The position numbers and the translations under genes are program-made. Shown one piece after another: positions 1-64,000 of a DNA stretch of 64,000 nucleotides. Source of the DNA: Lachnospiraceae bacterium (GTDB lineage Bacteria; Bacillota; Clostridia; Lachnospirales; Lachnospiraceae); NCBI GenBank assembly GCA_017617545.1, contig JAFZVZ010000001.1:50371-114370 (forward strand). Reading direction: 5' to 3'. The notes under the pieces are model-generated. The model was not told where the DNA came from. It did not search any database and was given only the letters and a program-made list of their open reading frames with translations. How positions within the stretch are numbered: the first letter of the stretch is position 1; the number at the start of each line of letters is the position of its first letter.

Positions 1-1
1 G

Positions 2-283
2 GTCAAGGAAGAGCTGCAGAAGGCAGTTGATGTGTGCGCAGGCGCGTACAAGCAAGTGTATGAACACATGCAGGAGGTTGTGGAGCGTCCGTTCTATACG
101 GCCTATACAGACTTTACCTCTGCACAGGGGTCGTCGGTTGGTTTCCTCGGAAGCAATCTCAAGAATATGGTGCTCGGCTGTGCGGTCGGCGCAATCCTCG
201 CATGCGGACTATGGTTTGTGAGCGCATTTACCGCTGAACTGAAGCGCGGAAGCCGCAAAGAAGACGGAAAGGAGGAGGCATAA
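2..283 (+). CDS. C-terminal end of a membrane protein, probably Wzz-like chain-length determinant (5' end outside window)
   Basis: The reading frame is open from the window edge to a TAA at 281-283, so only the last ~93 residues are seen. They contain one hydrophobic segment (NMVLGCAVGAILACGLWFVSAF) followed by a short basic, charged cytoplasmic tail (KRGSRKEDGKEEA). A membrane-proximal C-terminal helix with a short charged tail is the layout of Wzz/chain-length-determinant polysaccharide co-polymerases. The next gene starts one base after the stop and is also a two-TM protein with a long extracytoplasmic part, so the two probably form one polysaccharide-export operon. Family assignment is inferred from layout and context. 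Confidence 0.5.
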   Translation, partial: VKEELQKAVDVCAGAYKQVYEHMQEVVERPFYTAYTDFTSAQGSSVGFLGSNLKNMVLGCAVGAILACGLWFVSAFTAELKRGSRKEDGKEEA

Positions 284-284
284 G

Positions 285-2018
285 ATGAAGAATTCGAATG
301 CTGTTAACTCCTCCAAAAGTACAAAGAGCAACAGAAAGAAACTTCCGGTGCTGTGGCGCAGAGTGATCGGTCTGCTGTGTTGCGCGTTGGTAATCGGCAT
401 TATCGTGTCCTTTGTGACATTTTTCAAGAACCGCTCGGAAGACCGTGTGTCCGTAACGTTGCAGATGTCATTTGACGGAGCAGCGGACGGTATCGCGCCG
501 AACGGATATCGTTTCGATGTCGCAGAGCTTTTGTCTGACGAGGTAGTGACGGGGGCTCTGAAAGCGACGTCGCTTGACGGCAAATGCACGGTGGACGAAA
601 TCCGCAAGTGTATCACGGTTTCCGGACGGTATCCGTCAGACATAGTAAGTCAGACGATGAGTTACGATTCGCTGCTGGATTTTACGGCGAATCGACAGCT
701 TACGATTGATAAGTTTCACCCGACACAATTTACGATCACGTTGGAAAATCCGGCGGATAACAGATTGTCGAAGGCGCAGATGCAGTCGTTGCTTGAGAAT
801 ATCATTGCAGAGTACAAGAAGTATTTTGCAGAGGTAGCTGTTATGGGTCGGCCCGGCGATGCGGAGCCGTTTGATCTTGCGGATTACGACTATGCGCAGC
901 AGTTGGAGATCATAGAGCGACGTATACGGATCATGGGAAGCTATGCTTCGGAGATGTATGAGAAAGAGCCTTCGTTCCGCAGCAGTGACGGCGGGTTCAA
1001 TGATATCGTGGTTCGCCTTCATAACCTGATCAACAATGACATCAGCCGCATCAGCGCTAAATTGACGCTGAACGCGTTGACAAAGGACCCGGAGCGTCTG
1101 CTCTCGCAGTACCGTTACGAGCTGAAGAATTTGAACAACCAGCTTGCGGCTCAGAACAAGGTACTTGCGCTTGTGGACAAGATGGTGGGCGCGTACGAGA
1201 AGGCGGATATCCTCTACATCAGCACGCAGGATGCGCTGACCAAGATCGATGGTAACTCCTCGGAGACCTACGATAAACTGGTTGAGATCCGCAAGGATAT
1301 CGCGGACAGCAACACGAAGCTCAACTCCCGCAAGGAGGACATTGTCCTGAAGCTGCAGGATCTGCTTGGCGGCGTGGACAGTAAGGTTGTAGTGAATTCA
1401 GATTCGGAATTTGTCAACCGCGAAGAATCTGCAGATCCGAATGCTAATACGTCGGACAATGAACCCGGCGAGAACGATACCACGGATATCGACGGAAGCG
1501 GTTCAGGTGATACCGATGCTAATTCCGGTGATAATAATGGTGCCGGGGAGAACGGTAACAATAGCGGTTCCGGTGACGGCAAGATCGATGACAACGGTTC
1601 CGGTAACGGTACGGCAGATATCGATATCACCTCGTGGACCGATGAGCAGATCGTAGCGGCACTCCAGAAAGCTGCCGAGAACTCGGCAGGACAGCGCGAG
1701 TCGCTCGAGAAAGAGATCAGCATGCTCGTCGCCCGTTGCGACGAAGTTATGAGGGATTTCAGCAAGATGCTTCAGGACTGGAACGCGGAGAAGGTTAACG
1801 ATCTTACGATGGAAGTCGGCAGGTATGCCTATTCCCGCCAGGGGGTTGTTTCCTCGGCATTCATCCGCAACGGCATCAAGCGCATGGGTCCGTTCATGGC
1901 AGTGGCAATGATCATCAGCCTGATCATGATCATCGTCTCGAATGTGAAGGATGAGAAGAAGCATAGCGACGTGAAGAACAACGATGCGTTGACGAAAGCC
2001 GTTGGCAACGAAGACTGA
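285..2018 (+). CDS. Wzz-like two-TM membrane protein with large extracytoplasmic coiled-coil domain
   Basis: 577 aa. A TM segment near residues 27-47 follows a basic N-terminus, and a second TM (about residues 530-552, FMAVAMIISLIMIIVSNV) precedes a short charged tail. The region between is predicted outside the cell and is helix-rich. It is interrupted by a low-complexity Asp/Gly/Asn/Ser stretch at about residues 385-445, followed by more helix. Two terminal TMs around a helical domain fit polysaccharide co-polymerases, which set chain length in Wzy-type polymer export. No kinase domain is present. It starts one base after the upstream partial gene. A GC-rich hairpin at 2078-2105 ends the transcript. 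The family call rests on topology only. Confidence 0.55.
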   Translation: MKNSNAVNSSKSTKSNRKKLPVLWRRVIGLLCCALVIGIIVSFVTFFKNRSEDRVSVTLQMSFDGAADGIAPNGYRFDVAELLSDEVVTGALKATSLDGKCTVDEIRKCITVSGRYPSDIVSQTMSYDSLLDFTANRQLTIDKFHPTQFTITLENPADNRLSKAQMQSLLENIIAEYKKYFAEVAVMGRPGDAEPFDLADYDYAQQLEIIERRIRIMGSYASEMYEKEPSFRSSDGGFNDIVVRLHNLINNDISRISAKLTLNALTKDPERLLSQYRYELKNLNNQLAAQNKVLALVDKMVGAYEKADILYISTQDALTKIDGNSSETYDKLVEIRKDIADSNTKLNSRKEDIVLKLQDLLGGVDSKVVVNSDSEFVNREESADPNANTSDNEPGENDTTDIDGSGSGDTDANSGDNNGAGENGNNSGSGDGKIDDNGSGNGTADIDITSWTDEQIVAALQKAAENSAGQRESLEKEISMLVARCDEVMRDFSKMLQDWNAEKVNDLTMEVGRYAYSRQGVVSSAFIRNGIKRMGPFMAVAMIISLIMIIVSNVKDEKKHSDVKNNDALTKAVGNED

Positions 2019-2029
2019 CTAATTTAAGG

Positions 2030-2045
2030 GACTGACTAGTCAGTC
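2030..2045. repeat. 16-bp perfect palindrome GACTGACTAGTCAGTC
   Basis: This perfect palindrome lies 11 bases after the stop of the Wzz-like gene. A direct copy of its left half (GACTGACTA) overlaps that stop codon at 2013-2021, so alternative pairings are possible. Its role is unknown: it could be an operator, part of the 3' end structure, or a mobile-element footprint. Confidence 0.6.
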
Positions 2046-2077
2046 AGAGAAAGTGACCTGAAAAACATGAGAATTTT

Positions 2078-2110
2078 CCCCCTGAGCCCTGACCGGTTCA
2101 GGGGGATTGC
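2078..2110 (+). terminator. Probable intrinsic terminator after the Wzz-like gene
   Basis: CCCCCTGA (2078-2085) pairs with TCAGGGGG (2098-2105) around an 11-nt loop, followed by a weak T-rich tail (attgctttgtctt). It lies 60 bp after the stop codon and just before the promoter of the GH13 gene. Confidence 0.5.
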
Positions 2111-2116
2111 TTTGTC

Positions 2117-4343: not shown

Positions 4344-4471
4344 GATAGCCGTCTCGGAAAATGCAGGAAGAAAACAGGTTTTAACTCAATACACATACGC
4401 ATAACACAGACCCACAGGTACGCAAAGCCATTTGCAATCCGTATCGTTCCTGTTTGCGGAGCAGATACAAG

Positions 4472-9984: not shown

Positions 9985-10019
9985 CGTTGTACGGGATTCA
10001 GCGACATTTTCCGAAACAG

Positions 10020-11646: not shown

Positions 11647-11813
11647 CCGGTTGCTCCTTTCCGAAGATTTCCTTTGCCCTACTATACGCTGAAACGCGTC
11701 ATTTCACTCAAACAATTTTATACGGGAGGCACTTCCTAGTCAAATAAGCGGTCAATTGCGGGTGCATTTTCCGAAAAAAGCGAAACGGATCATACGGAAA
11801 ATAATATCCGGGC

Positions 11814-17700: not shown

Positions 17701-20064
17701 ATGAACGACAGAGCGATTCGCGTACTGGAATTTGACAAGATACGCGAAATGCTGATACATTACGCCGGCTCGACACTGGGCCGGATCCGGGCCGGCGAGC
17801 TGATGCCGGTGACGACGCTCGAGGAGGCGGATCTGCTGCAAATGCAGGCCGAGGACGCGACGAAGCGGATCGACAAGAAGGGAAGTCTTTCGTTCGGCGG
17901 GATCGGCGACATCGGCGAGAGCCTCGTGCGACTCGAGCACGGAGGGTGCCTGACGGCACCGGAGCTGCTGCGGATCGGCGGCATTCTGAATGCGACGCAG
18001 CGGGTGAAACAGTACGGAACAACGGGCACGCGCGGCGAGGACGCGCCGCAGGACACGCTCACGGAGCGGTTTGACTTGCTGGAGACGCTGCCGGAGCTGT
18101 GCAGGGAGATCAACCGATGCATCCTCTCGGAGGAGGAGATCGCGGACGACGCGAGCGCGGGACTTCGAAGCGTTCGTCGGAAAATTAAGGCAGCCAACGA
18201 TAAGATCCATGAGCGCATGGCGTCCATTCTGGCGCAGGCGTCGCAGCAGGGACTGCTGCAGGACGCACTGATCACGCAGAGGGACGGACGGTACTGCCTG
18301 CCGTACAAGAGCGAGTACAAAAACCAGGTGGCCGGCATGATCCACGATCAGTCGGCGACGGGATCGACCTCCTTCATCGAGCCGATGGAGGTCGTAAAAC
18401 TGAACAATGAACTGAGGGAGCTTGCGATCCAGGAGCAGGAGGAGATCCAGAAGGTGCTTGCGGCACTGTCGGAGCTCGTGGCGCCGAAGGTGCCGGAGCT
18501 CAAGTACAACGGCCAGTGCCTCGCGGAGCTCGACCTGATCTTCGCAAGGGCGATGTTCGGCCGCGCGATCCGCGGCAACCGTCCGGTATTTACCGACAAC
18601 CGCACGATCCGCATCATCCAGGGACGGCACCCGCTGATCCCGGACAAGCAGGTCGTGCCGATCGACATCGCGCTCGGCGCGGATCCGTCGATGATCGTGA
18701 TCACCGGCCCGAACACGGGCGGCAAGACGGTCACCCTCAAGACGGTCGGCCTGTTCACGATGATGGCGCAGGCGGGACTGCCGGTGCCGGCCAAGTCCGG
18801 CACGGAGATGGGTATTTTCCGCGAAGTGTACGCGGACATCGGCGATGAGCAGAGCATTGAGCAGTCGCTCAGTACATTTTCCTCACACATGACCAACACG
18901 GTGCACATTCTCGAGGAGGCGGACGAGGAGGCGCTCGTTCTGTTCGACGAGCTCGGCGCGGGCACGGACCCGACCGAGGGAGCGGCGCTCGCCACGGCGA
19001 TCCTGATGCATCTGCACCGGTTCGACATCCGCACGATCGCGACGACGCACTACGCGGAGCTCAAGCTCTTCGCACTGCGCACACCGGGCGTGATGAACGC
19101 CTGCTGCGAGTTCGACGTGGAGTCGCTACGGCCGACGTACCGGCTGCTGATGGGCATCCCCGGGAAGAGCAACGCATTTGCCATCTCGAAGAAGCTGGGT
19201 CTTTCGGACACCATCATCGACGAGGCGGAGGCGCAGATCGGCGAGTCCGACAAGAATTTCGAGGACGTGATCACCGACCTCGAGAGCAAGCGCCAGGCGA
19301 TGGAGGCGGAGCTGCTCGCGGCGCGCGAGGACCGCAGAAAAGCGGAGCAGATGCGCGCGGACTGGGAGCGCAAGACCGGCGAGATCGAGGCGAAGAAGGA
19401 GGAGATCCTCCGGAAAGCACGCGAGGAGGCGCGCGACACGCTCGAGGAGGCGAAGACGTACGCCGACGAGTCGATCAAGCGCGTGCGCAAGCTCGAGTCC
19501 CACGTGTCCTCGGCGGATCTGGAAAATGAGCGCCGCCGCACGAGGGAGAAGCTGAGCGAGCTCGAGGAGAAGATGCCGCAGATGAAGCCGGCGGCCAAGC
19601 CGTCGAAACAGCACAAGGCATCGGATTTCCGCATCGGCGACCCGGTGATGGTGCTGAGCATGAACCTAAAGGGCACGATCCACTCGCTGCCGAACGAGAA
19701 GGGCGACTGCTTCGTCACGATGGGCATCATGACCTCGAAGGTCAACATCGCGGATCTCGCGAAACTCGAGGATGAGACGCCGAAGAAGGACAGCTCCGGT
19801 GTAAAGGTCGCTACGGGCGCGAAGAGCCTGACGATCCGGCCGGACATCAACCTGGTCGGTCTCCGCGTGGATGAGGCGCTGGCGGAACTTGACAAGTACC
19901 TCGATGACGCGTACCTCGCGCATCTCGCGAAGGTGACCGTGATCCACGGGCGCGGCACGGGCGCGCTTCGCACGGCAGTGCACAATCATTGTAAGAAATT
20001 AAAGTACATAAAGGGTGTGACCATCTCGCCCGACTACGGTTCAACCGAGGTGGAGTTCAAGTAA
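17701..20064 (+). CDS. mutS2: MutS2 family ATPase/endonuclease
   Basis: 787 aa, the usual length. Order: N-terminal core/lever region, MutS-type ATPase with Walker A TGPNTGGKTVTLK and Walker B ALVLFDELGAGTDPTEGA, a long charged coiled coil (about 520-625), a KOW-like segment (DFRIGDPVMVLSMNLKGTIHSL) and a C-terminal Smr nuclease domain (NLVGLRVDEALAELDKYLDDAYLAHLAKVTVIHGRGTGALRTAVHNHCKKL). There is no mismatch-recognition domain, as expected. MutS2 is tied to suppression of recombination and, in Bacillus, to splitting collided ribosomes. The start follows GGAGGGG. Confidence 0.95.
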   Translation: MNDRAIRVLEFDKIREMLIHYAGSTLGRIRAGELMPVTTLEEADLLQMQAEDATKRIDKKGSLSFGGIGDIGESLVRLEHGGCLTAPELLRIGGILNATQRVKQYGTTGTRGEDAPQDTLTERFDLLETLPELCREINRCILSEEEIADDASAGLRSVRRKIKAANDKIHERMASILAQASQQGLLQDALITQRDGRYCLPYKSEYKNQVAGMIHDQSATGSTSFIEPMEVVKLNNELRELAIQEQEEIQKVLAALSELVAPKVPELKYNGQCLAELDLIFARAMFGRAIRGNRPVFTDNRTIRIIQGRHPLIPDKQVVPIDIALGADPSMIVITGPNTGGKTVTLKTVGLFTMMAQAGLPVPAKSGTEMGIFREVYADIGDEQSIEQSLSTFSSHMTNTVHILEEADEEALVLFDELGAGTDPTEGAALATAILMHLHRFDIRTIATTHYAELKLFALRTPGVMNACCEFDVESLRPTYRLLMGIPGKSNAFAISKKLGLSDTIIDEAEAQIGESDKNFEDVITDLESKRQAMEAELLAAREDRRKAEQMRADWERKTGEIEAKKEEILRKAREEARDTLEEAKTYADESIKRVRKLESHVSSADLENERRRTREKLSELEEKMPQMKPAAKPSKQHKASDFRIGDPVMVLSMNLKGTIHSLPNEKGDCFVTMGIMTSKVNIADLAKLEDETPKKDSSGVKVATGAKSLTIRPDINLVGLRVDEALAELDKYLDDAYLAHLAKVTVIHGRGTGALRTAVHNHCKKLKYIKGVTISPDYGSTEVEFK

Positions 20065-20099: not shown

Positions 20100-20167
20100 G
20101 GAGGAGATGCGGGAGTGCAAGCAGCATTTTCCGAATGATCTGTACATGCAGGAGAAAGGACAACAAC

Positions 20168-22303: not shown

Positions 22304-22367
22304 GCGCGGCGCAGGCAACATTTTCCGATGAATCACAGCGTCTTCGGGACGCAGCATGGAGATCGAA

Positions 22368-23997: not shown

Positions 23998-24942
23998 ATG
24001 AGGTATCTGAAAGAGTTGTATGAGGGTGAGATGGTACAGGAGGTGTACCTTTGTAAGCAAGTTCAAAACCTGAAGACCAAGGCCAACAAGTCCTACATGG
24101 CGCTCACGCTGCAGGATAAGACCGGCACGTTTGATGCCAAAATCTGGGAGTTGAACAACGGGATTGAGCACTTCGAGGCGATGGATTACATCAAGATCGA
24201 CGGCCAGGTCACTTCGTTCCAGGGTGCGCTGCAGCTGAATGTCAAGCGCGTGCGCCGCGCGAGCGAGGGCGAGTACGACCCTTCGGATTACATGCCTTGC
24301 ACGGACCGGAATGTGGACGAGATGCTCGCTGAGCTGGGCAAATTCGTTCAGTCCGTGAAGCAGCCGCACCTGCGGAAGCTGCTCGGTGAATTTTTCGAGA
24401 ACAAGGCGTTTCTTGACATGTTCCGCAAGCACTCCGCGGCGAAAATGGTACACCACGCATTCATCGGCGGTCTCCTCGAGCACACGCTGAGCGTGACGCA
24501 GATCTGTGACTGGTACGCGCAGCACTACCCGCTTCTGAACCGCGACCTTCTGGTCACGGCGGCGATGTTCCACGATATCGGCAAGCTCAAGGAGCTGTCG
24601 GTTTTCCCGGAAAATGATTACACCGACGAGGGCAACCTCCTCGGCCACATTTACATGGGCACCGAGATGATCGGTCGGAAAATAGAGGCGATCCCTGATT
24701 TTCCGAAGACGCTCGCCGCGGAGCTCAAGCACTGCATTTTAGCGCACCACGGAGAGCTGGAGTTTGGCTCGCCGAAGAAGCCCGCGCTGTGTGAGGCGCT
24801 GGCGCTTTCGATGGCGGACAACCTCGATGCGAAGATGGAGACGCTCAAGGAATTGATGCGCGACGGCAACCAGAACACGACGAACGGGTGGTTCGGTTTC
24901 CAGAAGCTGCTGGAATCCAACATCCGCATCACGGAAGTATAA
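23998..24942 (+). CDS. yhaM: 3'-5' exoribonuclease YhaM
   Basis: 314 aa, the exact usual size. An OB-fold nucleic-acid-binding domain (QNLKTKANKSYMALTLQDKTGTFDAKIWE, residues ~20-110) is followed by an HD phosphohydrolase domain with the metal ligands in GGLLEHTLSV, MFHDIGK and LAHHGELEFGSPKKP. YhaM trims RNA 3' ends in Gram-positives. The real start is ATG 23998 behind AAAGGA; an upstream in-frame ATG at 23725 lies inside the foldback repeats and is rejected. Confidence 0.94.
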   Translation: MRYLKELYEGEMVQEVYLCKQVQNLKTKANKSYMALTLQDKTGTFDAKIWELNNGIEHFEAMDYIKIDGQVTSFQGALQLNVKRVRRASEGEYDPSDYMPCTDRNVDEMLAELGKFVQSVKQPHLRKLLGEFFENKAFLDMFRKHSAAKMVHHAFIGGLLEHTLSVTQICDWYAQHYPLLNRDLLVTAAMFHDIGKLKELSVFPENDYTDEGNLLGHIYMGTEMIGRKIEAIPDFPKTLAAELKHCILAHHGELEFGSPKKPALCEALALSMADNLDAKMETLKELMRDGNQNTTNGWFGFQKLLESNIRITEV

Positions 24943-40240: not shown

Positions 40241-40310
40241 GATTGAGACAGCCCAGGAGAGAAACGACGCGTTTCGCGGAAAGAATTTTCCGAAATAAAG
40301 ACATAAAAAT

Positions 40311-46430: not shown

Positions 46431-46453
46431 CGATTCTCATTTTCCGAATATAA

Positions 46454-46886: not shown

Positions 46887-49625
46887 TCAGTCGGTCGTTG
46901 CGCCTCCGCCTGCATCCGGCGGTGTCCCGCCGTCGACGGCACCCGGATCCGGGGTAGGTGTCGGCACCCAGCCCGCGCCGTGGATGGAACAGGTGGTGTA
47001 CGACGAGCTGACGATGTATGCACTGTCGGACGTTCCTCCGTGAGCAAGCGTCTCCGCCGTCTCGGTCTTCTTCAGAAGCACGCGGGAATGCGTGGACGGA
47101 CAGGTGGAAGATGCGCGCTGGCCGGACTCGTCGCAAATGACCACGCGCTCGTGGCAGGTACACAGTTCGTACGGCTGAGTTCCGTTTTCGAAAGATTCTT
47201 CCTTGATACAGTTGCCGCCTGCGTACGCGTCGCAGAGACCGGGAACAGCCAGCTTGCCGCACTTGATACAGACGTTGGCAGTGACGATGGAATCGGGTTT
47301 CGGAAACGCAAGGTCTTCCTCCTCGATCTCCTTCCCGTTCTCGTCGAGACCGTATCCCTTGGCTTTGTGCACATCCTCCATGATGTACCGCCATAGGTAT
47401 CGGTAGTATTGGTTGTTGGTCTGTGGCAGGTTGTTGTCGTACCCGCTCCAGATAACGGCTGTGTACCACTGTGTGAAACCGGCGAACCAGAGGTCGACGT
47501 TGTCATGCGCGGTACCGGTCTTGCCGGCGATCGGAATCTTGTCCAAATCCTTGAACTTACAGGTGGAACCGGTACCGATCTTGGTGGTGTCAACAAGAGC
47601 GCTCGTGAGAAGGTATGCAGTCGAAGGCTTCATAACCTGCTTCGAGGTCTTGATGTTGTTGAGAAGAATGTTGTTGTCGTGATCGTACACTCTCGTGTAG
47701 TAGCGGGGCTTGTTGTAAACACCCTCGTTGGCGATCGCGGCGTAGGCTGCGGTCATCTCCAGCACGGAGCAACCGTTAGTGAGACCGCCGAGCGCGATGG
47801 ATACGTTGTAGTCGGAGTATCCGTCGCTGCCGTCCGTATCAATACGGGAAAAGCCGAGCTTCTGGAGGGTGGATACACCGATCTCCGGCGTGACGGCGAT
47901 CATGCACTGGCACGCGACGACATTTCGCGAGTCGTAAATACCCTGGCGGATGGTCGAGAGGCCCTTGAAGTAGTTGTACCAGCTTCGAACCTCCTCGGTG
48001 CTGTTCGGGTATACGAAGTAGCAATCATCGAAAACACTTGCGAGAGTATAACCGCACACATCGATCGCGGGCAGGAACGAAGCGAGAACCTTGAAGGTGG
48101 AACCTGCCTGACGGTAGGTGTTGCTCGCGCGGTTCAGGACACGGTTGCCGACTTTCTCGCCGCGGCCGCCGCACTGTGCGATGACCTGGCCGGTGTGCTG
48201 ATCCATGATGACCATTGCGCACTGCGGCTGCAGGGAGAAGGAGCGGGACTCTACCGGCTCGTTGTATTTGACGCCCGGATTGTCCTTCTCGAACTTCTCC
48301 GCCATGGCTGCCTTGAACTCATCGATCATCTCGTTGAAGGCTTCATAGTCGGTCGTGTACGCGCTGATACCGGTGCTGCCGCTCTTGTGGTAGAACAGTT
48401 TCTTGGAATCCTTGAAATCGGAATAATATTTCAGCAGATCGTTCAGGTGATAATGCTTGGTGATCTTTCCGTCGGTGCTGACGAACGAGAGCGCGTAGGT
48501 CTTGGCAAGCTCGTAGTAGGAACCGGACTTCACCTTCGGAAAATACTCTTCGTTCGTGAAGTACGAATCCATGATCGACTGAACCTCGCGGTCCTGCGTC
48601 GTGTAGATCCGAAGACCGCCGGTGTACAAAAGCGAGTTGGCAGCCTGCGCCGAATAGCCCTTGGCCTGCAGGTCATCGAGAAGCTGCTCGATCAGCTCGT
48701 CGACGAAGTAGGAGTACTGCTGCGATGAAACGGCAGCGGTAATCTCAGCCTGCTGCTGAAGACGGATATACACATCGTCCGTGTCGGCGATCGCCTCGTC
48801 GTATTCTTCCTGCGTGCAGAGGCCTGCGTTGAGCATGTTGTTCAGACAGTCCTCGCGACGACGGCGGTTGTCCTCCTCATGACGCAGAGGGTTCATGCCG
48901 GAAGGGAAGTATGCGACCGGTGCGATGACCGCGGCCTCCGAGATGGTGAGCTCGCTGACATCCTTGCCGAAGTAGCGCTGAGCGGCATCGCCGATGCCGA
49001 AGGCACCGTTGCCGAGGTTGATGGTGTTGAGGTAGTACTCGAGGATGGTTTCCTTGTCCATCTTGTCCTCGAGCTTGACGGCAAGATACTGCTCCTGAAC
49101 CTTACGGACAAGCTTGTCCACCGAGCTTCGCTCGTTACCGCCGCCGAACACCTGGTTCTTCAGGAGCTGCTGCGTGATCGTACTTGCACCGTACTTCAGG
49201 CCTCGTACCTTCACAACGGAAAATGCGGCACGGAAAATACCGCGCACGTCAATACCGCGGTGCTGGTAGAAACGCTCATCCTCCATCGCGACGAAGGTGT
49301 CGCGTACCTTCTGGGGGATCGTCTCGATCGGCGCGTAGATCTTGTTCGTTCCCGCGCCGACGAGCTCCACGATCTCCATGCCGTCCGGATAGTAGATCTT
49401 GGACGAGAACAGATCGGGGTGAACGTCGATGCCGTCGATGCTCGGCGCCGTGGAAATGGCGCCCTGATAAGCTCCGTAAGCGGCGAAGCTGCCTGCTACG
49501 ACCATGAAGACAAGTCCCACCAGCGCGATGCGGAACAGCCAGATGCGCATCATGCTGTAGAACCGCCGCACGGGCGATTTCAGGTATTTCTGCTTACGAA
49601 TGATGTTGTAATGACTGTAATTCAT
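46887..49625 (-). CDS. Class A penicillin-binding protein (PBP1A-like) with Cys-rich tail
   Basis: 912 aa. N-terminal TM (~residue 30-52), GT51 glycosyltransferase domain with the catalytic Glu in MEDERFYQHRGID and YGASTITQQLLKN, then a transpeptidase domain with STFK, SRN and KTGT motifs all intact. It polymerises and crosslinks peptidoglycan outside the membrane. After the transpeptidase comes a ~120-residue extension with ten or so Cys (CIKCG..CDAYAGGNC..CTCHERVVICDE..C..C), ending in a Pro/Thr linker. Start 49625 follows a weak AGCAGG. Transcription comes from a TTTACA-17-TATACT promoter with upstream WalR-like boxes. Confidence 0.93.
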   Translation of the reverse strand: MNYSHYNIIRKQKYLKSPVRRFYSMMRIWLFRIALVGLVFMVVAGSFAAYGAYQGAISTAPSIDGIDVHPDLFSSKIYYPDGMEIVELVGAGTNKIYAPIETIPQKVRDTFVAMEDERFYQHRGIDVRGIFRAAFSVVKVRGLKYGASTITQQLLKNQVFGGGNERSSVDKLVRKVQEQYLAVKLEDKMDKETILEYYLNTINLGNGAFGIGDAAQRYFGKDVSELTISEAAVIAPVAYFPSGMNPLRHEEDNRRRREDCLNNMLNAGLCTQEEYDEAIADTDDVYIRLQQQAEITAAVSSQQYSYFVDELIEQLLDDLQAKGYSAQAANSLLYTGGLRIYTTQDREVQSIMDSYFTNEEYFPKVKSGSYYELAKTYALSFVSTDGKITKHYHLNDLLKYYSDFKDSKKLFYHKSGSTGISAYTTDYEAFNEMIDEFKAAMAEKFEKDNPGVKYNEPVESRSFSLQPQCAMVIMDQHTGQVIAQCGGRGEKVGNRVLNRASNTYRQAGSTFKVLASFLPAIDVCGYTLASVFDDCYFVYPNSTEEVRSWYNYFKGLSTIRQGIYDSRNVVACQCMIAVTPEIGVSTLQKLGFSRIDTDGSDGYSDYNVSIALGGLTNGCSVLEMTAAYAAIANEGVYNKPRYYTRVYDHDNNILLNNIKTSKQVMKPSTAYLLTSALVDTTKIGTGSTCKFKDLDKIPIAGKTGTAHDNVDLWFAGFTQWYTAVIWSGYDNNLPQTNNQYYRYLWRYIMEDVHKAKGYGLDENGKEIEEEDLAFPKPDSIVTANVCIKCGKLAVPGLCDAYAGGNCIKEESFENGTQPYELCTCHERVVICDESGQRASSTCPSTHSRVLLKKTETAETLAHGGTSDSAYIVSSSYTTCSIHGAGWVPTPTPDPGAVDGGTPPDAGGGATTD

Positions 49626-50563: not shown

Positions 50564-50607
50564 AGTGGCTTTCCTTGACAATTTAACAGTATGTATGTAA
50601 ACTTGTA

Positions 50608-52600: not shown

Positions 52601-52641
52601 GCGGGGAGTGCGAACGATCGCGCTTCCCGCATAATTGCGGG
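52601..52641 (+). promoter_or_regulatory. Two mutually exclusive leader hairpins before the transglutaminase gene
   Basis: Stem 1: GCGGGGAGTGCG (52601-52612) with CGCGCTTCCCGC (52619-52630). Stem 2: CCCGCA (52626-52631) with TGCGGG (52636-52641). The right arm of stem 1 is the left arm of stem 2, so only one can form. No T-tract follows. The rest of 52506-52724 holds a -10-like TATACT near 52552 and a CGGAAAAT-family motif at 52561. Confidence 0.45.
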
Positions 52642-52724
52642 GGAATAACGAAACTCGGGAACAGGGGGTCAGGAGTTTCGGACAGATGAAAGGAGTTCGC
52701 GTCGGGGGACGCGAAATAGTAGTT

Positions 52725-55076: not shown

Positions 55077-55121
55077 CCGGAGAAAACAGGACGGAGACAG
55101 TTTATTTTCCGAAGAAATAAC

Positions 55122-55155
55122 GAAAGAGGGCACCGTTTGAGTGCCCTCTTTCTTA
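55122..55155. terminator. Bidirectional terminator between convergent genes
   Basis: GAAAGAGGGCAC pairs with GTGCCCTCTTTC around 7 nt, T-rich on one side and A-rich on the other. Confidence 0.88.
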
Positions 55156-55178
55156 CTGCTATGAAGAACCGTAGCGGA

Positions 55179-56724: not shown

Positions 56725-56830
56725 GCTTGTTACCTCCCTACGTGTTTCTTCCCCTCACCCTATCATCCGACATCGCGGCCCGCAGGTTGCATTTTCCGAA
56801 CAAAGGAATTGATATTTCTTCGGAAAATGA

Positions 56831-56863
56831 AAAACGGGCGCAGGAGAGACTTCCCCGCGCCCG
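56831..56863 (-). terminator. Terminator of corA
   Basis: Read on the minus strand, CGGGCGC pairs with GCGCCCG, followed by TTTTTC. Confidence 0.8.
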
Positions 56864-56880
56864 AAATGATTCGGTGATCC

Positions 56881-57798: not shown

Positions 57799-57872
57799 AC
57801 GGTGGGTCCTTTCTGCCCCGTGGCGGTTGATGGTGTTATTATACTCTGTCAGGGGGCGGTTTGGCAACGAAA

Positions 57873-57908
57873 AAGAAACCGAAGCGCAGAGGCTTCGGTT
57901 TCTTTTTT
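57873..57908 (-). terminator. Terminator of the YD-lipoprotein gene
   Basis: AAGAAACCGAAGC pairs with GCTTCGGTTTCTT; A/T-rich on both flanks, so usable on both strands. It lies just after the stop of the gene ending at 57941. Confidence 0.85.
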
Positions 57909-57940
57909 CTCCGGTTGGTTCAGTATTCGTTCGGAGCTCC

Positions 57941-60640
57941 TCAGCAGTACCATGTGGTGCTGAGGAGGATCAGATGTTTATTCACATAAAGGTAGGTTTT
58001 GATGAAGCCTGTATTTTCCGAGTCATGGGTGTTGACCATGACAACCTGCACGCCGTCGGAGACATCGAACAGCGTCCACTCCACGGGAAGCGCGTTCTGT
58101 GTGCAGCTTCCGTTCTTGTTCCAGGAGTATATGTCGTGGTTGTTCAGTTCGGCAGACAGGTCAAACTGACCGTCGTTTACCACATGGAGATGATATTGGT
58201 AGGTGCCGCCGTCGTTGGCTTCGTAGGCACAGTAATGCTCAACAAGGATCGGGGACGTCTGATCATCCAGATAATATGCCCCGAGGATGACCGAATAGTA
58301 GCAATCCGGGTCGCTGACCGGACGACGCACCGACGCGTTCACGACGATGATATCGCTCTTCTCGAACGGGAGCCCGACCATCTCGCAGACCGCCTTCGCC
58401 TCGTCTTCATATCGGGAGGTGCTGGAGAACCAGCTGTACAGGGTGTCGCTCGACGGTTCGAACGGGGCCTCCTCCGTCTGCAGGGTCTGCTCGACGCAGC
58501 ATCCGTCTATAAGGAAACGGGTGAAGACGGCATAGTAGTACAGTTCTTTCGTGTCATCGATGCCGCTGACCAGGAAGCCGTAGTCGTCAACGTCGTTGTT
58601 CTCCGCATACTCGGGAGCGTGGCCGTAGACGGCGTATTCGTAGATCTCGACGGTTTTGTGCTCATCGAGCTCTTTGGAGCTGAGAAGGTTCAGCTTGCGG
58701 ATCGGAATGTCCTTGAACTCCTTGCGCAGCTCGGTGAGATACTGCTCCTTATGCTCCCGCAGGAGGGCTGCATTTTCCGAGGCAAATTCGGAGTACTCGG
58801 TGTTCATCAGGGTATCCGGGTTGTACTTGCCGGAGAGATCGGTGAGGACCGTTGTGCACACCTGCGTTCCGGACGTGTTGCTGACCGTATCGGCAGTCAT
58901 GCTGTTGAGAGTGCTGTCCGAAGCGTAGGCGTAACGGTACGTCGTCGTGATATCGGCGCTGCCGCTGCCGGTATCCTCAAGCGTAAACTGTCTCTCGCGT
59001 CCGGTCAGCAACCAGTTCTTATCGTACGTATACGTGATGATCTTGTGCTCGTCAAAGTTATGGTACTCTTCGCGGATCACGTAATTCTTCTCATCGTACT
59101 TGTAGTTCGCGTATAAGCCGCTGCCCTCCACGAGCTCGTACCGGGTCAGATGTCTGTCCTTGTTCCGCTGGAAGTTTCTCGTGTAGAAGAGGTCGGTTCC
59201 GGAATACGCCTTCTCGTCAAACTTCCACGTGTCGGCCTTCAGCATGTCTCCGGTGATCAAACCGTAGAAGGTGAGGAGAGTCTTATCTTCGGCTTCTCCG
59301 GGGATCCCGAAGAAGGACATCGAATCGTAATCACACGGCTCGTCATAGATACTGTTGTCATACTGAACCCGCGGAAAGTAGCGGTCGCTGTCAATGCTGC
59401 CCCAGTATGCGCGAAGATGAGAGGTAGTCTCCAGGTTTTGGCGGAGTTCCGTGTCCGGGATGAAGATCTCGGCTTTGTAAACTTCGTCGGTATAACTATC
59501 ATCACGGGTGTATACGAGCACGGAACCGTCAGCGTAGTATTTTACGCTGTATTCCACGACGGCCGTTATCCCGTCATCTCCGGGAGTGTGCTGTTCCGTC
59601 CAGCCGGTCAGCCGGTTGTTCTCGTCCTTGTGATAGAAGTATTTTGTTACTTCCGGCAGAGCGTCGGTGGTTTCGTGGGTTACGGCGATCAGATTGTCCG
59701 CGTCGTCGTACTCGTAGACAGTGCGGGTTTCGTAGGGCGGATCCGGATTGTCCGCGGACGGTATGGGAAAGCCGATCGGATATCCGTTGTACTCCGATCT
59801 CAGGCTGCCGTTTTCGTTGTACGTGTAGGTGGTGAAATCGGTGAGGTAAACACCCTTGTCTGTACAGTAGTCAGCTGACACGAGGATGTTTCCCTTCGCG
59901 TCGTAGGTAAAGCAGGTATAGTATCGGTTCTGAGAACTCGGTGAGCTTATGAAGGTGCAGAGACCGTTGACGGTCTCATCAAAGGTGTAGAGATATTCTC
60001 TCGCGCCATCTGCGAGATCCAGCGCGTAACCGTTTTTCGCCGTGTAGAGCGTTACCTGCTTGCCGTCGGTAAGTGTGAAGATCTGCATCATCGGCTGAAA
60101 CGCATCATCCATGTAGCAGACCTCTTCCGCGAGGGCGGTGAGGTCGAAGGCGTCCGGGTAATTCGCTTCAAACCACGGAAAATACCTGAGTGTCGAGTAA
60201 ATACTGTTGCTGTGCATCACATCCGCCTCGATACCCTGCGTGTTGTAGGTGGTTGTCTGCTTGTAAGCGTATGCCGCATCGCCTAAGAGAGCGCGGTCGC
60301 TGATCTCACGGTCAATGGCATCTTTCAGATGATCAAAGGACGAAAGAGACGGGAGATTGTACGGCATCTCGAGCGTGGAAGTCGGGACGGCGGTGGGTTC
60401 TGCCGTCGGTTCGGGACCCGCCGTCGGAGTAGCCTCTGCGGACGGTGTAACCTGGTCCGTGACAGCCGGAGTAGCGGACGGTGTTGTCTCCGAAGTCGGA
60501 GCTACCGTGGCGGTCGGCTCTGCGGTCGGAGTGACCTCGGGATCGGTATTGTTGCCGCATCCGGTCAGTGTTGCCAGAGCGCAGATGCCCAGCGAGGCAG
60601 CGGCCAGAAAAGAGGTAAAAGTGCGCTTGATCGTATTCAT
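57941..60640 (-). CDS. YD/RHS-repeat-like lipoprotein 1
   Basis: 899 aa. Lipobox in ATLTGC (Cys ~28) is followed by a ~65-residue Thr/Pro/Ala/Glu linker of PTAEPTATVAP type. The body contains tyrosine/aspartate YD-type repeats known from RHS proteins: FTYDAKGNILV, YTYNENGSLRSEY, YEYDDADNLIAVTHE, YKYDEKNYVIREEY, YTYDKNWLLTGRE. About five recognisable units are spread out rather than packed. RHS repeats usually build a beta-shell around a toxin, but there is no toxin domain and no self-cleavage motif here. A paralogue lies directly upstream. Confidence 0.78.
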   Translation of the reverse strand: MNTIKRTFTSFLAAASLGICALATLTGCGNNTDPEVTPTAEPTATVAPTSETTPSATPAVTDQVTPSAEATPTAGPEPTAEPTAVPTSTLEMPYNLPSLSSFDHLKDAIDREISDRALLGDAAYAYKQTTTYNTQGIEADVMHSNSIYSTLRYFPWFEANYPDAFDLTALAEEVCYMDDAFQPMMQIFTLTDGKQVTLYTAKNGYALDLADGAREYLYTFDETVNGLCTFISSPSSQNRYYTCFTYDAKGNILVSADYCTDKGVYLTDFTTYTYNENGSLRSEYNGYPIGFPIPSADNPDPPYETRTVYEYDDADNLIAVTHETTDALPEVTKYFYHKDENNRLTGWTEQHTPGDDGITAVVEYSVKYYADGSVLVYTRDDSYTDEVYKAEIFIPDTELRQNLETTSHLRAYWGSIDSDRYFPRVQYDNSIYDEPCDYDSMSFFGIPGEAEDKTLLTFYGLITGDMLKADTWKFDEKAYSGTDLFYTRNFQRNKDRHLTRYELVEGSGLYANYKYDEKNYVIREEYHNFDEHKIITYTYDKNWLLTGRERQFTLEDTGSGSADITTTYRYAYASDSTLNSMTADTVSNTSGTQVCTTVLTDLSGKYNPDTLMNTEYSEFASENAALLREHKEQYLTELRKEFKDIPIRKLNLLSSKELDEHKTVEIYEYAVYGHAPEYAENNDVDDYGFLVSGIDDTKELYYYAVFTRFLIDGCCVEQTLQTEEAPFEPSSDTLYSWFSSTSRYEDEAKAVCEMVGLPFEKSDIIVVNASVRRPVSDPDCYYSVILGAYYLDDQTSPILVEHYCAYEANDGGTYQYHLHVVNDGQFDLSAELNNHDIYSWNKNGSCTQNALPVEWTLFDVSDGVQVVMVNTHDSENTGFIKTYLYVNKHLILLSTTWYC

Positions 60641-60761: not shown

Positions 60762-62954
60762 CTAGTGCTCAAAAGCGCGTGCGACCCAGTCGAGGCCTGA
60801 TTTGGAAATGTGGATGCCATCCGGTACCGCGTTCGTCGTCGCGGGGTTCTCGGCCCACCAGAAGATGTAGCGGAAGTCGCCGTAAACCGCAACGCCGTAG
60901 TAGCAGCTGAATTCATTTTCGTCGTACTCGGTTTCCCCTTGCAGGGCATCGCCGAGGATAGCCTTGATCTCCTTGTAGGACATCGTGTTATCCAGACCGT
61001 TGCCGAGACCGACCTTCAAATTGCCGGAAATGGAGTTGTCTACATAGACGATCAGGGTCTTCATCGAAGGATCCATCGTCTCGGTGCATTGGTCGCACAT
61101 AAATTGCACTGCGCTGTCGAAGTAGAAGCCGCCGTTGTGTCCGAGGACAAGATCCTTATCCTCACCGAAGTAAGAGTATACATAGTCACGGTCGATCTTG
61201 CTGATCACTTCGCCCGCGGTCATGTCGAGGTACTGCGAGACATCGCCGTACTTGATGCCCTTGTACAAAGCTAACGTTGTGGTGCATGCATTTTCCGAAG
61301 AACCATCATTGATGAGCTGCTTGTCTGCGGTCATGCCGGTCAGCTTGCCGTTCGCGTCGTAGGTGTAGCGGTAGGTCGTCCTGGTGTGGACTTCACCCGA
61401 TCCGGTGTCGGACAGATCGTATGTTTCAACTCGCTCCGTCAGGCGGTTGTTCTTGTCGTAGGTATAGTCGTTCGTAGTGGTCTCATCGAAGCTGAAGTGA
61501 TAGGTATGGATCAGACGCTTCGCATCGTCATACCGGTATTCTCTGGTATATCCGTTTCCGCCCTCGGTGGAGTACTCGCCCGTCAGCTGACCGTCCTTGT
61601 TGAACACAAGGAACATATAGTACCACAGGTTATCGTTGATGTATTCCTCGGTGGAGGCGTACCAGGTGTCTCTGTTCAGAGTGTCCTTGGACATCTCGCC
61701 GCGGAAGCAGGTGTAATATCCGTCCTTGAGAGGAAGAGGCATCTGCTTCGAAATTCCGTAAAGGAATTCATATTCCGCGTTTGTTTCACTGTAATACAGA
61801 TAGTCCATATCCGTCGGGTAATCGAAGCCATTTGTGTTTATGCGCAGGTGCGAAGCGGTAAGAAGATTGTTGAGGTACGCCTCGGAAGGGATGACCAGGG
61901 TTCCGTTGAGGTATTCTTCGGTTGCACTTTCCGCATAGAAGAGAACGCGGCCGTCCGGAAAATATTTGATGTTGACGGGGGTCGAGTCTGTTACGGACCA
62001 GCCGGAAAGGCGACCGTCGGCGTCCTTGGTAAGAGTAATCGTCGTTACTTTGGCCTGAAGGGGCTCCATGCCTCTCTTGATCTTCGACGTTTCGGAGATC
62101 AGGTTGTCGTCCTTGTCGTAGGCATATAAATACTCGGTGACATCGTCATATCCCTTGCCGGGGTTTGAGCAGGAGGCCTCGACCTTGCGGATGAGACGAT
62201 CCTGTTCATCATACTCATATGCGACCCTGACGTAGTTCAACAGCTTGTTGTCATTCTTGCCGTACGTTGCAGAATATCTGACACCGTGAATGTCAACGGA
62301 ACAGGTGTAGATATCGCTGCTTCCGACGTTGTAATCGTACAGGAGGACGGGGGTGCCGTCCTCCAGTCTGTCGCCGGAGGGAAGATACTCACGCGCGTTG
62401 CCGTCGTAGTCCAGTGCATCACCGTAGGTTGTATGGTAGACGGTTGCCTTCTTGCCGTCGGTGAGCGTGAAGATCTGCTTCTTTATGCAGAAATTGACGT
62501 CCATATAGCGGGTGACTTCCGTGTAGACTGCGGATGAGCCGGACTCCGGGAACGACGGGAAGGCGTTCAGGTCGCTGTAGCCGTTTTCCGACCAGCTTTT
62601 GTTGCCGACGGTCTTGGTGTAGGTTGTCGTCTGCTCGTAGGTGTATGCGGAGTCTGCGATGATCGCTTCGTCGATGAGCTTCTTCGCGCGCTCAAGGGAA
62701 AATGCGGGAAGCTCCGCCGGAGGCTCTACCGTAGGCTCTGCGGTCGGCGTCGGCGCCGTCGTAGGAGTCGCTGCGGTTGTCGGAGTAGCCTCGGCCGTCG
62801 GTGTAGCCTCAGCGGACGGAGCAACCGTGGCGGTCGGCTCCGCGGTCGGAGCAGCCTCGGAATTGTTCTTGTTGTCGCAACCGGTCAGTGCCGCGAAAGC
62901 GAGAATGCCGGTCAGTACGATCGTGCCGATCGTGTGGATGCGTTTGCGTGTCAT
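60762..62954 (-). CDS. YD/RHS-repeat-like lipoprotein 2
   Basis: 730 aa, paralogue of the downstream lipoprotein. Lipobox AALTGC, then a Thr/Pro/Ala/Glu linker, then YD-type units: YEYDEQDRLIRKVE, YAYDKDDNLISETS, YRYDDAKRLIHTYH, YTYDKNNRLTERVE, YTYDANGKLTGM. The two proteins share the N-terminal ~250-residue plan (AYTYEQTTTYTKT / AAYAYKQTTTYNT, IFTLTDGK in both). The promoter on this strand has WalR-like boxes upstream. Probably a surface-exposed, wall-associated protein; function unknown. Confidence 0.8.
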   Translation of the reverse strand: MTRKRIHTIGTIVLTGILAFAALTGCDNKNNSEAAPTAEPTATVAPSAEATPTAEATPTTAATPTTAPTPTAEPTVEPPAELPAFSLERAKKLIDEAIIADSAYTYEQTTTYTKTVGNKSWSENGYSDLNAFPSFPESGSSAVYTEVTRYMDVNFCIKKQIFTLTDGKKATVYHTTYGDALDYDGNAREYLPSGDRLEDGTPVLLYDYNVGSSDIYTCSVDIHGVRYSATYGKNDNKLLNYVRVAYEYDEQDRLIRKVEASCSNPGKGYDDVTEYLYAYDKDDNLISETSKIKRGMEPLQAKVTTITLTKDADGRLSGWSVTDSTPVNIKYFPDGRVLFYAESATEEYLNGTLVIPSEAYLNNLLTASHLRINTNGFDYPTDMDYLYYSETNAEYEFLYGISKQMPLPLKDGYYTCFRGEMSKDTLNRDTWYASTEEYINDNLWYYMFLVFNKDGQLTGEYSTEGGNGYTREYRYDDAKRLIHTYHFSFDETTTNDYTYDKNNRLTERVETYDLSDTGSGEVHTRTTYRYTYDANGKLTGMTADKQLINDGSSENACTTTLALYKGIKYGDVSQYLDMTAGEVISKIDRDYVYSYFGEDKDLVLGHNGGFYFDSAVQFMCDQCTETMDPSMKTLIVYVDNSISGNLKVGLGNGLDNTMSYKEIKAILGDALQGETEYDENEFSCYYGVAVYGDFRYIFWWAENPATTNAVPDGIHISKSGLDWVARAFEH

Positions 62955-63010
62955 GATGAATCCCCCCTGTGGTTCGTACGGTGTGGGTCCGTATCGGATT
63001 GTATGACACT

Positions 63011-63038
63011 AGCATAACACGAAAAAGTTACAAAACAA
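63011..63038 (-). promoter_or_regulatory. Promoter of the YD-lipoprotein genes
   Basis: Minus strand: TTGTTT (63038-63033), 16 bp, TATGCT (63016-63011). The -35 is weak, which is common for activated promoters. Confidence 0.5.
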
Positions 63039-63048
63039 GTATTATTGT

Positions 63049-63108
63049 GGTTACGATTGTGTAACAAATAATTACATCTTTGTTACGGAGAGTTTTCGAA
63101 TTGTTACA
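63049..63108 (-). promoter_or_regulatory. WalR-like direct-repeat boxes upstream of the YD-lipoprotein promoter
   Basis: On the + strand half-sites start at 63050 (GTTACG), 63071 (ATTACA), 63082 (GTTACG) and 63103 (GTTACA), spaced 21, 11 and 21 bp; a further GTTACA at 63027 lies inside the promoter. On the minus strand 63087-63071 reads CGTAAC-N5-TGTAAT. GGTTACGATT at 63049-63058 is identical to 49816-49825 upstream of the PBP gene. The same 26-bp stretch also forms an inverted repeat GTAACAAA..TTTGTTAC (63061-63086). The 320-bp gap 62955-63274 otherwise holds only the two promoters. Confidence 0.5.
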
Positions 63109-63122
63109 GCGGAAAATAAGAC

Positions 63123-63151
63123 TTGATTTTTCGTGTCGGGCGTGATAATAT
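63123..63151 (+). promoter_or_regulatory. Promoter of clpB
   Basis: TTGATT (63123-63128), 17 bp, TAATAT (63146-63151). No CIRCE (HrcA) or CtsR heptad repeat was found nearby. Confidence 0.55.
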
Positions 63152-63274
63152 TGTTATAGATGTAATAGAACAGACAAACAGAGAGGAAAGAGGAGCCCGC
63201 GAACCGCTTTGCGGCGGGCGCGGAATACGGTAAAAGACGCCGGCGGGAAGTGCGGCGTCGGATCGGAGGAAGTT

Positions 63275-64000
63275 ATGAACATCAACAAGTTTACGCAGAA
63301 ATCAACGGAAGCCGTTCAGGCGGCGGAGAAATTGTGTTATGAGTACGGCAACCCGGAGATGCGGCCGGAGCACCTTCTGTACGCGATGCTTCAGGACAAT
63401 GAGGGCTTGATTCCGAAGCTCTTGGAGAAGATGGGCATCGTCACGGAAGTTTTCGAAGCGCAGGTGCGAGGGCTGATCGAGCGGATGCCGAAGGTGCAGG
63501 GCGCGAACCTCGTCGTGTCGCAGGACCTCAACAAGGCGTTAATGTACGCCGAGGACGAGGCGAAGGCGATGGGCGACGCGTACGTGAGCGTCGAGCACCT
63601 TTTCCTGAGTATGTTAAAGAACAGCGGACGCGACCTTGCGGGAGTTCTGCGGAGTTTCGGCATCGACCGTGACCGTTTCCTCGCGGTGCTCGCGGAGGTG
63701 CGCGGCAACAAGGCCGTGACGACCGACAACCCCGAGGCGACCTACGACAGCCTCGGCAAATACGGCTACGACCTCGTGGAGCGCGCGAAGGCGCAGAAAC
63801 TCGACCCGGTCATCGGACGCGACGCGGAGATCCGCAACGTCGTGCGGATCCTTTCCCGTAAGACGAAGAACAACCCCGTGCTGATCGGTGAGCCGGGCGT
63901 TGGCAAGACGGCGATCGCCGAGGGTTTGGCGCAGCGGATCGTCGCGGGTGTCGTGCCTGAGGGCTTGAAAAATAAGAGCATTTTCGCGCTCGACATGGGC
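63275..64000 (+). CDS. clpB: ClpB disaggregase (N-terminal 242 aa, cut by window end)
   Basis: The frame runs open from ATG 63275 (GGAGGA four bases upstream) to the window end. Clp-N double repeat: [34 protein letters not shown] and [34 protein letters not shown]. Then the first AAA+ module with [11 protein letters not shown] and Walker [11 protein letters not shown]. ClpB/ClpC differ downstream of this point; the N-domain/AAA spacing and lack of CtsR-mcsAB genes favour ClpB. It refolds aggregated protein together with DnaK. Confidence 0.88.

Follow-up and report, generated by a model that had tools for sequence, protein, structure and literature searches.

We describe a highly iterated octamer, CGGAAAAT (read as ATTTTCCG on the opposite strand), in a 64,000-nucleotide stretch of an uncultured Lachnospiraceae genome (GCA_017617545.1, contig JAFZVZ010000001.1, positions 50,371 to 114,370; hereafter the window), in the rest of that genome and in its relatives. 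The octamer is probably the core of an uptake system resembling the DNA uptake sequences (DUS) of Neisseriaceae and the uptake signal sequences (USS) of Pasteurellaceae, in a genus of monoderm rumen Lachnospiraceae. We take the host genus to be Gram-positive, judging by its family. Uptake by such a self-recognition tag is best known from these two families, both Gram-negative. This reading draws on how the word is distributed along the genome and among relatives, on its failure to exceed chance in two prophage islands and on how scarce it is over the type IV pilus operon, as well as on the pilus and competence genes found. Among the genomes compared, the enrichment is confined to one Lachnospiraceae genus and is strong in one of its clades.

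Abundance and anatomy of the octamer

An earlier reading of the window by eye (the original prediction) had counted 78 copies of GGAAAAT/ATTTTCC, 44 in one orientation and 34 in the other, with about 48 extended to the octamer where composition would give a handful. Our recount is identical for the shorter word (78; 44/34) and yields exactly 48 copies of CGGAAAAT/ATTTTCCG, 27 on the + strand and 21 on the - strand; the coordinates cited earlier are correct to within 2 bases. A handful is indeed what chance provides: 100 dinucleotide shuffles of the window gave a mean of 2.58 and a maximum of 9 copies, with 48 reached in 0/100, and a second-order Markov model expects 3.7. In the whole genome (2.73 Mb, 45 contigs) we found 869 forward and 928 reverse copies, 1,797 in total or 0.66/kb, which is 9.7-fold the Markov expectation. 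The reversed word, used as a control in the same genome, occurs 12 + 5 = 17 times. A 383-kb sample made up of 20 other stretches of this genome contains 283 copies against 25.9 expected (10.9-fold), and an 883-kb sample contains 618 (~0.70/kb). Two stretches (L099 and L101) read as N. The mean spacing in the own-genome sample is 1.25 kb, and counts in 5-kb intervals of the 883 kb are Poisson-like (mean 3.49, variance 3.34). Overall, the host and most of its close relatives carry the word about once per 1.5 kb or somewhat less.

The word is specific at most of its core bases. In the 383-kb sample, one-letter changes at positions 5 to 8 are found at 0.17 to 1.5 times expectation, changes at position 2 at 1.1 to 2.3 times, and changes at position 4 at 1.4 to 3.3 times, the highest being C, which is weakly tolerated at 3.3-fold. 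Position 1 accepts any base (4.5- to 6.2-fold) and position 3 is tolerant, with T at 12.7-fold, A at 5.6-fold and C at 4.0-fold. The weaker GNAAAAT form of the original prediction is accordingly enriched, with 104 copies of CGTAAAAT against 8.2 expected and 100 of CGAAAAAT against 17.7. A general enrichment of AT-rich octamers is rejected, as such octamers are present in the 383 kb without enrichment. The two outcomes that the original prediction had named as fatal to it, counts near Markov expectation and equal enrichment of similar octamers, are thus not what we observe, most core-base neighbours lying far below the word itself.

CGGAAAAT sits within a longer consensus, TTCGGAAAATG, and has the extended form T-rich(-8 to -1)-CGGAAAAT-G-M. 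Among 94 intergenic copies, T occupies position -1 in 62% and G directly follows the core in 65%; the T-rich flank adjoins the core and is found on one side only. One longer version, TCGGAAAATG, occurs 83 times in the 383 kb against 1.7 expected (48-fold). Neither the word itself nor its sequence logo contains a palindrome or dyad.

Placement in genes, on strands and in pairs

Using genes predicted with our own codon-score finder, we found 235 copies within coding sequence in 447 kb, compared with 23.5 (range 14-44 in 20 runs) after synonymous-codon shuffling. All six frames are occupied, as the original prediction had proposed for the reading frames, and the codons that the word forces are, as it also held, disfavoured in this genome: 39 predicted genes contain AAA 193 times and AAG 740 times, AAT 166 and AAC 552, GAA 306 and GAG 1085. 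The density is 2.4-fold higher between genes (1.47/kb) than within them (0.61/kb) in the same 447 kb. The further statement that most intergenic gaps hold one or two copies was overstated, the exact octamer being present at 0.28 to 0.34 per gap of 20-800 bp in the sample. A neutral mutational or codon-usage bias favouring the word could account for its being common to closely related genomes; it is the least probable of all the explanations we considered, given the specificity at most core bases, the occurrence in all frames, on both strands and between genes, the 10-fold excess over the synonymous shuffle, and its loss, on one and the same chromosome, within prophage islands and across the pilus genes.

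The word shows no preference for the coding strand (224 sense and 220 antisense copies in 883 kb) or for a replication strand. With the leading strand deduced from GC skew, the G-rich (leading-type) strand carries 167 copies in 21 stretches, compared with 164 for the C-rich strand. Chi sites and the polar sequences that guide chromosome segregation (KOPS) are strand-biased signals. The balance argues against a recombination or segregation signal of either kind, including the Chi-like alternative of the original prediction, and although the length, density and genus restriction of the word would fit, we consider such a signal, already contradicted by the strand counts, very improbable.

Close pairs of copies are mostly inverted. 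At distances <40 bp in the own-genome sample, 27 pairs have opposite and 2 the same orientation. Opposite pairs again prevail at 120-160 bp (10 vs 1), 320-480 bp (44 vs 25) and 640-1000 bp (92 vs 53), with no excess at 480-640 bp (27 vs 31) or beyond 1 kb. The bias in some bins out to ~1 kb is beyond the range of a hairpin. Six control words have no significant excess of inverted pairs, and most show the reverse. Inverted pairing as a trait of the whole word family was rejected, since CG[AT]AAAAT has an inverted bias only at <20 bp and [AGT]GGAAAAT hardly any. In relatives rich in the same word the bias is weaker (18 opposite vs 11 same at <320 bp). We inspected 29 inverted pairs by eye: more than half lie at least partly within predicted genes, and the T-run typical of terminators is absent after the word pair. 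Some single copies follow separate terminator-like hairpins. A terminator or promoter element is also disfavoured, because the hairpins beside some copies (window positions 40000-59000) do not have the word as their stem and the word is found equally within genes, on both strands.

Forms of the word among relatives

Named relatives, all metagenome-assembled genomes, were found with the MutS2 protein encoded in the window as query. MutS2 places the host among uncultured Lachnospiraceae, many of them from the ruminant gut, with 95% identity to 'Lachnoclostridium sp. UBA1175'. For 21 of 22 genomes of the genus (G020 lacked a sample) we compared whole-genome counts with Markov expectations calculated from sequence samples; the relatives' genome sizes are rounded, and the expectations for G003, G014 and G021 in the genus and for G026, G030, G032 and G044 in other genera derive from samples <10 kb. 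The reversed-word control made sister genera look enriched; the second-order Markov expectation removed this effect, and the control was dropped there.

Nine genomes including the host (G000) have an A form, with CGGAAAAT at 5.6 to 10.6 times expectation and CGGCAAAT at 2.6 to 4.2 times. Seven genomes (G004, G007, G008, G013, G015, G016, G018) lean to a C form, with CGGCAAAT at 3.0 to 6.7 times and CGGAAAAT at 1.2 to 4.3 times. Both words are weak (1.7 to 3.1 times) in G001, G012 and G021, and neither is enriched in G006 and G017 (1.1 to 1.2 times). Since the enrichments of the two words overlap, the forms represent a shift in ratio and not exclusive dialects. In other genera of the family CGGAAAAT is at chance (0.56 to 1.46 times) in 14 of 15 genomes, G029 being masked. 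One genome of the same order but outside the family (G058, GC ~0.60) contains 90 copies against 31 expected (2.9-fold), which may reflect either the error of a small-sample expectation or a second lineage.

A midpoint-rooted ComEC tree of 18 genomes (G015, G016, G020 and G021 are absent from it) has three clades: the nine A-form genomes with the C-leaning G007; the C-form clade of G013, G004, G001, G018 and G008; and G012, G006 and G017. A tree of four pilus proteins from 16 of the 22 genomes recovers these three groups and adds G016 to the second and G015 to the third. The form of the word, as a ratio shift, is congruent with both trees, with G007 C-leaning within the A clade. Altogether, the comparison with relatives that had been proposed earlier gives clade-dependent forms of the word and chance level in sister genera.

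Highly iterated words can also be tied to methylation. An orphan or restriction-linked methyltransferase could mark the octamer, its number being raised by methylation-linked repair or protection, as proposed for the cyanobacterial word HIP1. Words of the HIP type are highly iterated, changes of the cyanobacterial word accompany changes of methyltransferase in the part of PMC4390886 consulted, and the host genome has one strong N6/N4 methyltransferase match. The octamer is, on the other side, non-palindromic, and strong matches are patchy in the genus (PF01555 at <1e-20 in 6/22 genomes, PF02384 at <1e-20 in 4/22, PF00145 in 4/22). Two A-form genomes, G002 (completeness 100) and G009 (completeness 95), have no match over cut-off in these three families, other families not having been searched. 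With no conserved methyltransferase in the three Pfam families, the methylation alternative of the original prediction appears improbable.

Turnover of sites

Copies of the word turn over rapidly. When own copies were aligned to A-form relatives, the exact word was kept in 41/107 comparisons, compared with 0.25 for control words, and in 41/73 in the reverse direction; at 80-95% identity it was kept in 28/55 and, in reverse, 28/34 (controls 0.33). One own copy may be compared with several relatives, so that these comparisons are non-independent. Unshared own copies are one step away from the word in 12/66 cases, compared with 0.39 for controls. A similar pattern in Neisseria was interpreted as gain through recombination in the part of PMC2397512 consulted. 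Poor alignment in loose regions could also produce this multi-base divergence. The commonest one-step change of GGAAAATG is to GGCAAATG (5/9), and a change of CGGAAAAT to CGGCAAAT was found just once among 12. Compared base by base, the copies give no clear sign of being better conserved than the sequence around them.

Prophage islands and base composition

Among the 22 genus genomes, an HK97-type phage portal gene was found only in G005, where it occurs at two places. Besides the portal, these two islands encode terminase, tape-measure, tail, head and serine-recombinase proteins. They contain 3 copies of CGGAAAAT in 75 kb against 7.1 expected, compared with 49 against 5.6 in 105 kb of flanking sequence (p = 7e-9). 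The island edges, within which the phage genes lie, were drawn by eye from 5-kb counts and GC, so the contrast between island and flank is partly circular. One prophage of G005 also contains a C5 cytosine methylase gene beside an N6/N4 methylase with a ParB-like domain (L211:11850-15105).

The main rival explanation is a chromosome-structuring protein. An abundant protein of the nucleoid, or one that organises the chromosome, would bind a strict 8-bp site at ~1,800 places; selection for packing would keep these sites, and species would differ because the specificity of the protein changed. The even Poisson-like spread, the strand balance and the use of six frames would all fit, inverted pairs would suit a dimer, and the absence from prophages could reflect incomplete amelioration. 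Base composition gives a mixed outcome for AT-rich DNA in general, with genes lower and 1-kb windows not. In 883 kb, own genes carry 0.61/kb at GC >=0.53 and 0.44/kb below, although chance predicts the opposite, and this slight excess in AT-poorer genes speaks against such a protein. In contrast, 1-kb windows of GC 0.46-0.53, intergenic sequence included, carry 0.76/kb, no less than the sample average of ~0.70/kb, so AT-richness alone does not exclude the word. Proteins of the xenogeneic-silencer type (H-NS/Rok/Lsr2) occupy foreign DNA, yet the word is at or below chance in the two prophage islands. Of the nucleoid-protein alternative in the original prediction, the silencer type is therefore disfavoured, other nucleoid proteins less so. 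The rival gives no reason for the word desert over the pilus operon in both enriched clades (below), and as a whole we judge it unlikely.

Competence genes and a word desert over the pilus operon

The genus has the machinery that DNA uptake would require. N-methyl pilins are found in 17/22 genomes, ComEC in 20/22, DprA in 20/22 and ComEA over cut-off in 21/22, confirming the ComEA-type gene whose presence the original prediction had suggested checking. In the 13 best genomes, at E <=0.001, the counts are 13 for pilins, 13 for ComEC, 12 for DprA and 13 for ComEA; G009 (completeness 95) has no DprA match. A scan of window genes gave no ComFC-type gene, which had been raised in the same context: the phosphoribosyltransferase encoded at 34004-34564 matches the adenine-phosphoribosyltransferase type (NF005592, 1.6e-59) and the ComF model only at 9.6e-4. 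The host's type IV pilus operon encodes a T2SSE/PilB ATPase and five to six pilins, together with genes whose similarity and order suggest PilT, PilC, PilD, PilM and PilN. One of the pilins resembles GspH and ComGD below the NCBIfam cut-offs. The pilins and ComEA are candidate receptors, the GspH-like pilin being only a lead, and its charge is not convincing as a predictor of the word. ComEA and ComEC lie ~4 kb apart on contig 31 in a region of normal word density (14 copies in 20 kb).

The pilus operon, examined as the candidate machinery, is a desert for the word. In the host, a gap of 22.3 kb covers the operon and its downstream neighbours, which are beta-CASP metallo-hydrolase and O-antigen-ligase-like genes (G000 contig 7: 43761-66075; L160, L220). 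It is the longest gap in the third of the genome examined, the next being 8.8 kb, with the proviso that gaps ending at the end of a stretch could exceed their listed length. Across the operon in six A-form genomes we observe 7 copies against 48.4 predicted from the genome average (G009 and G019 have three apiece and G011 one, while G000, G002 and G005 have none). For the C-form clade, five genomes contain the two words 6 times in all against 30.4, 4 of the 6 in G018. DNA of matching GC elsewhere carries 0.76/kb. Operon spans were set by hand from pilin coordinates, and related operons are not independent. On the pilB side the word resumes within ~1 kb in G000, G002, G005 and G008; on the other side the gap extends 2 to 9 kb beyond the assigned span. 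Recent acquisition does not explain the desert, because pilus genes and ComEC divide the genomes into the same groups. One alternative is that the pilus locus avoids its own signal.

Proposed biased uptake and the evidence against it

Biased uptake with recombination could produce this distribution as follows. Double-stranded DNA would be bound, best at T-rich-CGGAAAATG, by a protein of the envelope; ComEA or a minor pilin of the conserved type IV pilus is the likeliest. Pilus retraction would deliver bound DNA to ComEA/ComEC, and the incoming strand would be recombined with the help of DprA. Word-bearing fragments would enter more often, and biased uptake and homologous recombination would together raise the frequency of the word in shared chromosomal DNA, spreading it over both strands and all frames, most densely between genes. 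The word would stay absent from phage DNA and from non-exchanging loci. Drift in receptor specificity may have led to a strong A form (CGGAAAAT), a lean to the C form (CGGCAAAT), and little or nothing in the third clade. We regard biased uptake with recombination as the least strained account, because it would explain the independence of orientation and frame, the intergenic excess, the lineage forms, fast turnover at high density, the absence from prophages and the link to the pilus locus. The interpretation in the original prediction is partly supported, its DUS/USS-like idea standing up best: density, strand balance, six frames, inverted pairs, clade forms, prophage absence and the set of type IV pilus, ComEA, ComEC and DprA genes all fit it. 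The binding, the preference in uptake, the resulting drive and the receptor are what we infer.

Several observations weigh against an uptake sequence. Retention of the word is modest, and against the C-form clade CGGAAAAT is kept at control level (5/38, controls 0.13). Per-base identity over own copies is 0.75 compared with 0.80 for controls (0.85 in the reverse direction), own copies not exceeding controls because unshared copies usually differ at several bases; neisserial DUS, by comparison, are reported at 97% identity in the part of PMC2397512 consulted. There are no clean dialects, as A-form and C-leaning genomes both hold CGGCAAAT (2.6-4.2 and 3.0-6.7 times). The GspH-like pilin lacks a GRxR tail, and among genomes its charge tracks the word poorly. 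ComEC (L144-L147) is interrupted by stop codons in G016 (contig 57), which has the words at 2.8 and 4.5 times expectation, and is in two pieces in G015 (contig 63); this damage represents either a real loss or an assembly error. The desert is an after-the-fact fit, not being described for DUS in the parts of the literature consulted. Finally, the word-free species G006 and G017 hold the same machinery, so gene presence does not predict the word. This last point would favour an uptake-like distribution reached by another route than type IV pili and ComEC, for example a gene-transfer agent or vesicles with sequence choice. We give this route very little credence, even less than a Chi-like signal, as the pilus operon, ComEA, ComEC and DprA are conserved across the genus and few phage-type genes were found in the families tried (one tyrosine integrase in the host genome and the HK97-type portal in 1/22), gene-transfer-agent genes not having been searched.

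Features of the window

Table 1. Positions of the octamer and associated features in the window
Feature	Position	Strand	Context
CGGAAAAT starts (27)	2805 3238 4355 6084 8649 11164 11795 12696 13240 18178 21936 22506 24608 24676 29153 35608 44496 44737 48537 49217 49231 49876 54154 56821 60176 61956 63110	+	
CGGAAAAT starts (21)	5018 10006 11766 14147 18814 20126 22320 24698 25457 30908 33364 36006 38309 40285 44033 46439 55104 56791 58013 58772 61290	-	
Inverted pair ATTTTCCG ... CGGAAAAT	11766..11802		intergenic
Inverted pair CGGAAAAT ... ATTTTCCG	24676..24705		within predicted gene
Inverted pair	56791..56828		intergenic, adjoining predicted terminator hairpin 56863-56835
Same-orientation pair, 14 bp apart	49217..49238	+	
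Copy outside predicted genes	4355..4362	+	
Copy outside predicted genes	10006..10013	-	
Copy outside predicted genes	20126..20133	-	
Copy outside predicted genes	22320..22327	-	
Copy outside predicted genes	40285..40292	-	directly past T-rich tail of terminator-like hairpin 40335-40311
Copy outside predicted genes	46439..46446	-	close to terminator-like hairpin 46428-46404
Copy outside predicted genes	55104..55111	-	directly past T-rich tail of terminator-like hairpin 55152-55122
Copy outside predicted genes	63110..63117	+	
MutS2 gene (MutS_V, Smr)	17701..20064	+	exact copies at 18178 (+) and 18814 (-)

Three further features of the window were observed. An identical 39-base stretch with AGGAAAAT occurs twice, 120 bp apart (23704-23742 and 23824-23862), around the predicted start of an HD-domain gene. 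At 30141-31061 a SUFU-domain protein (PF05076, 7.6e-24) is directly followed by a 930-aa protein with an N-terminal metallophosphoesterase domain. An RHS-repeat protein is encoded at 60762-62954, and its neighbour at 57941-60640 is an 899-aa protein with no Pfam or NCBIfam match.

Relation to known systems and implications

The DUS of Neisseriaceae, which have dialects and the minor pilin ComP as receptor, resemble the octamer in occurring at ~1 copy per kb, within and between genes and in inverted pairs; their dialects match the core tree, they are scarce in recent acquisitions, and unshared copies are too diverged for point mutation (PMC3630211, PMC2397512). The system described here differs in its unrelated word, its host in the class Clostridia, forms that shift in ratio, much lower site conservation and the pilus-operon desert. 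Its inverted pairs do not look like typical terminator hairpins, some distance bins too long for a hairpin also favour opposite orientation, and its receptor and uptake are proposed ones. The USS of Pasteurellaceae have a similar core length, an AT-rich flank and similar density and spacing (PMC7811141); the word here is unrelated, with a T-rich flank on one side only, adjoining the core. Copy numbers of 1,465 and 1,892 at ~1 kb spacing are reported for USS/DUS (PMC7811141). HIP1 of cyanobacteria (GCGATCGC) is likewise a lineage-specific, genome-wide, highly iterated octamer, but is palindromic and tied to methyltransferases (PMC4390886), whereas the word here is neither palindromic nor accompanied by a conserved methyltransferase in the three families. 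Chi and KOPS are similarly short over-represented words, unlike the octamer in their strand bias.

Veillonella parvula is a Firmicute with an outer membrane. Its uptake bias is the nearest case in the literature: it is naturally competent and prefers isogenic genomic DNA, with no word of >=10 bp at >=100 copies reported and the cause left open by the authors, in the part of PMC5397411 consulted. Here, in comparison, TCGGAAAATG alone is present 83 times in the 383-kb sample. The machinery genes are of the same kinds as the Com and type IV pilus genes of Gram-positives, for which no uptake sequence is described in the parts of PMC6370729 and PMC8897410 consulted. A whole-word literature search found no published mention of the octamer, its complement or two sub-words, and titles and abstract openings gave no case of uptake sequences in Firmicutes, Lachnospiraceae, Clostridia or Gram-positives, although a published case may still exist. 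Neisseria and Pasteurellaceae have been called unique in needing short uptake sequences (PMC3630211, in part).

If the octamer is an uptake sequence, its occurrence in a Gram-positive would show that uptake can be sequence-selective without an outer membrane. It would represent a third origin, with a series of forms of its own, and would imply natural transformability in uncultured rumen Lachnospiraceae. The desert over the pilus operon makes the search for a receptor concrete and provides a testable link between uptake specificity and species barriers. We tentatively suggest a wider possibility, for which the case is weaker: that a Gram-positive genus of gut Clostridia has a self-recognition uptake word with clade-shifting, losable forms, that the type IV pilus operon encodes its reader and has itself purged the word, so that the locus setting the dialect is not spread by dialect-matched uptake. 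If this is true, the pilus operon would be a genetic-isolation locus comparable to a mating-type or speciation locus.

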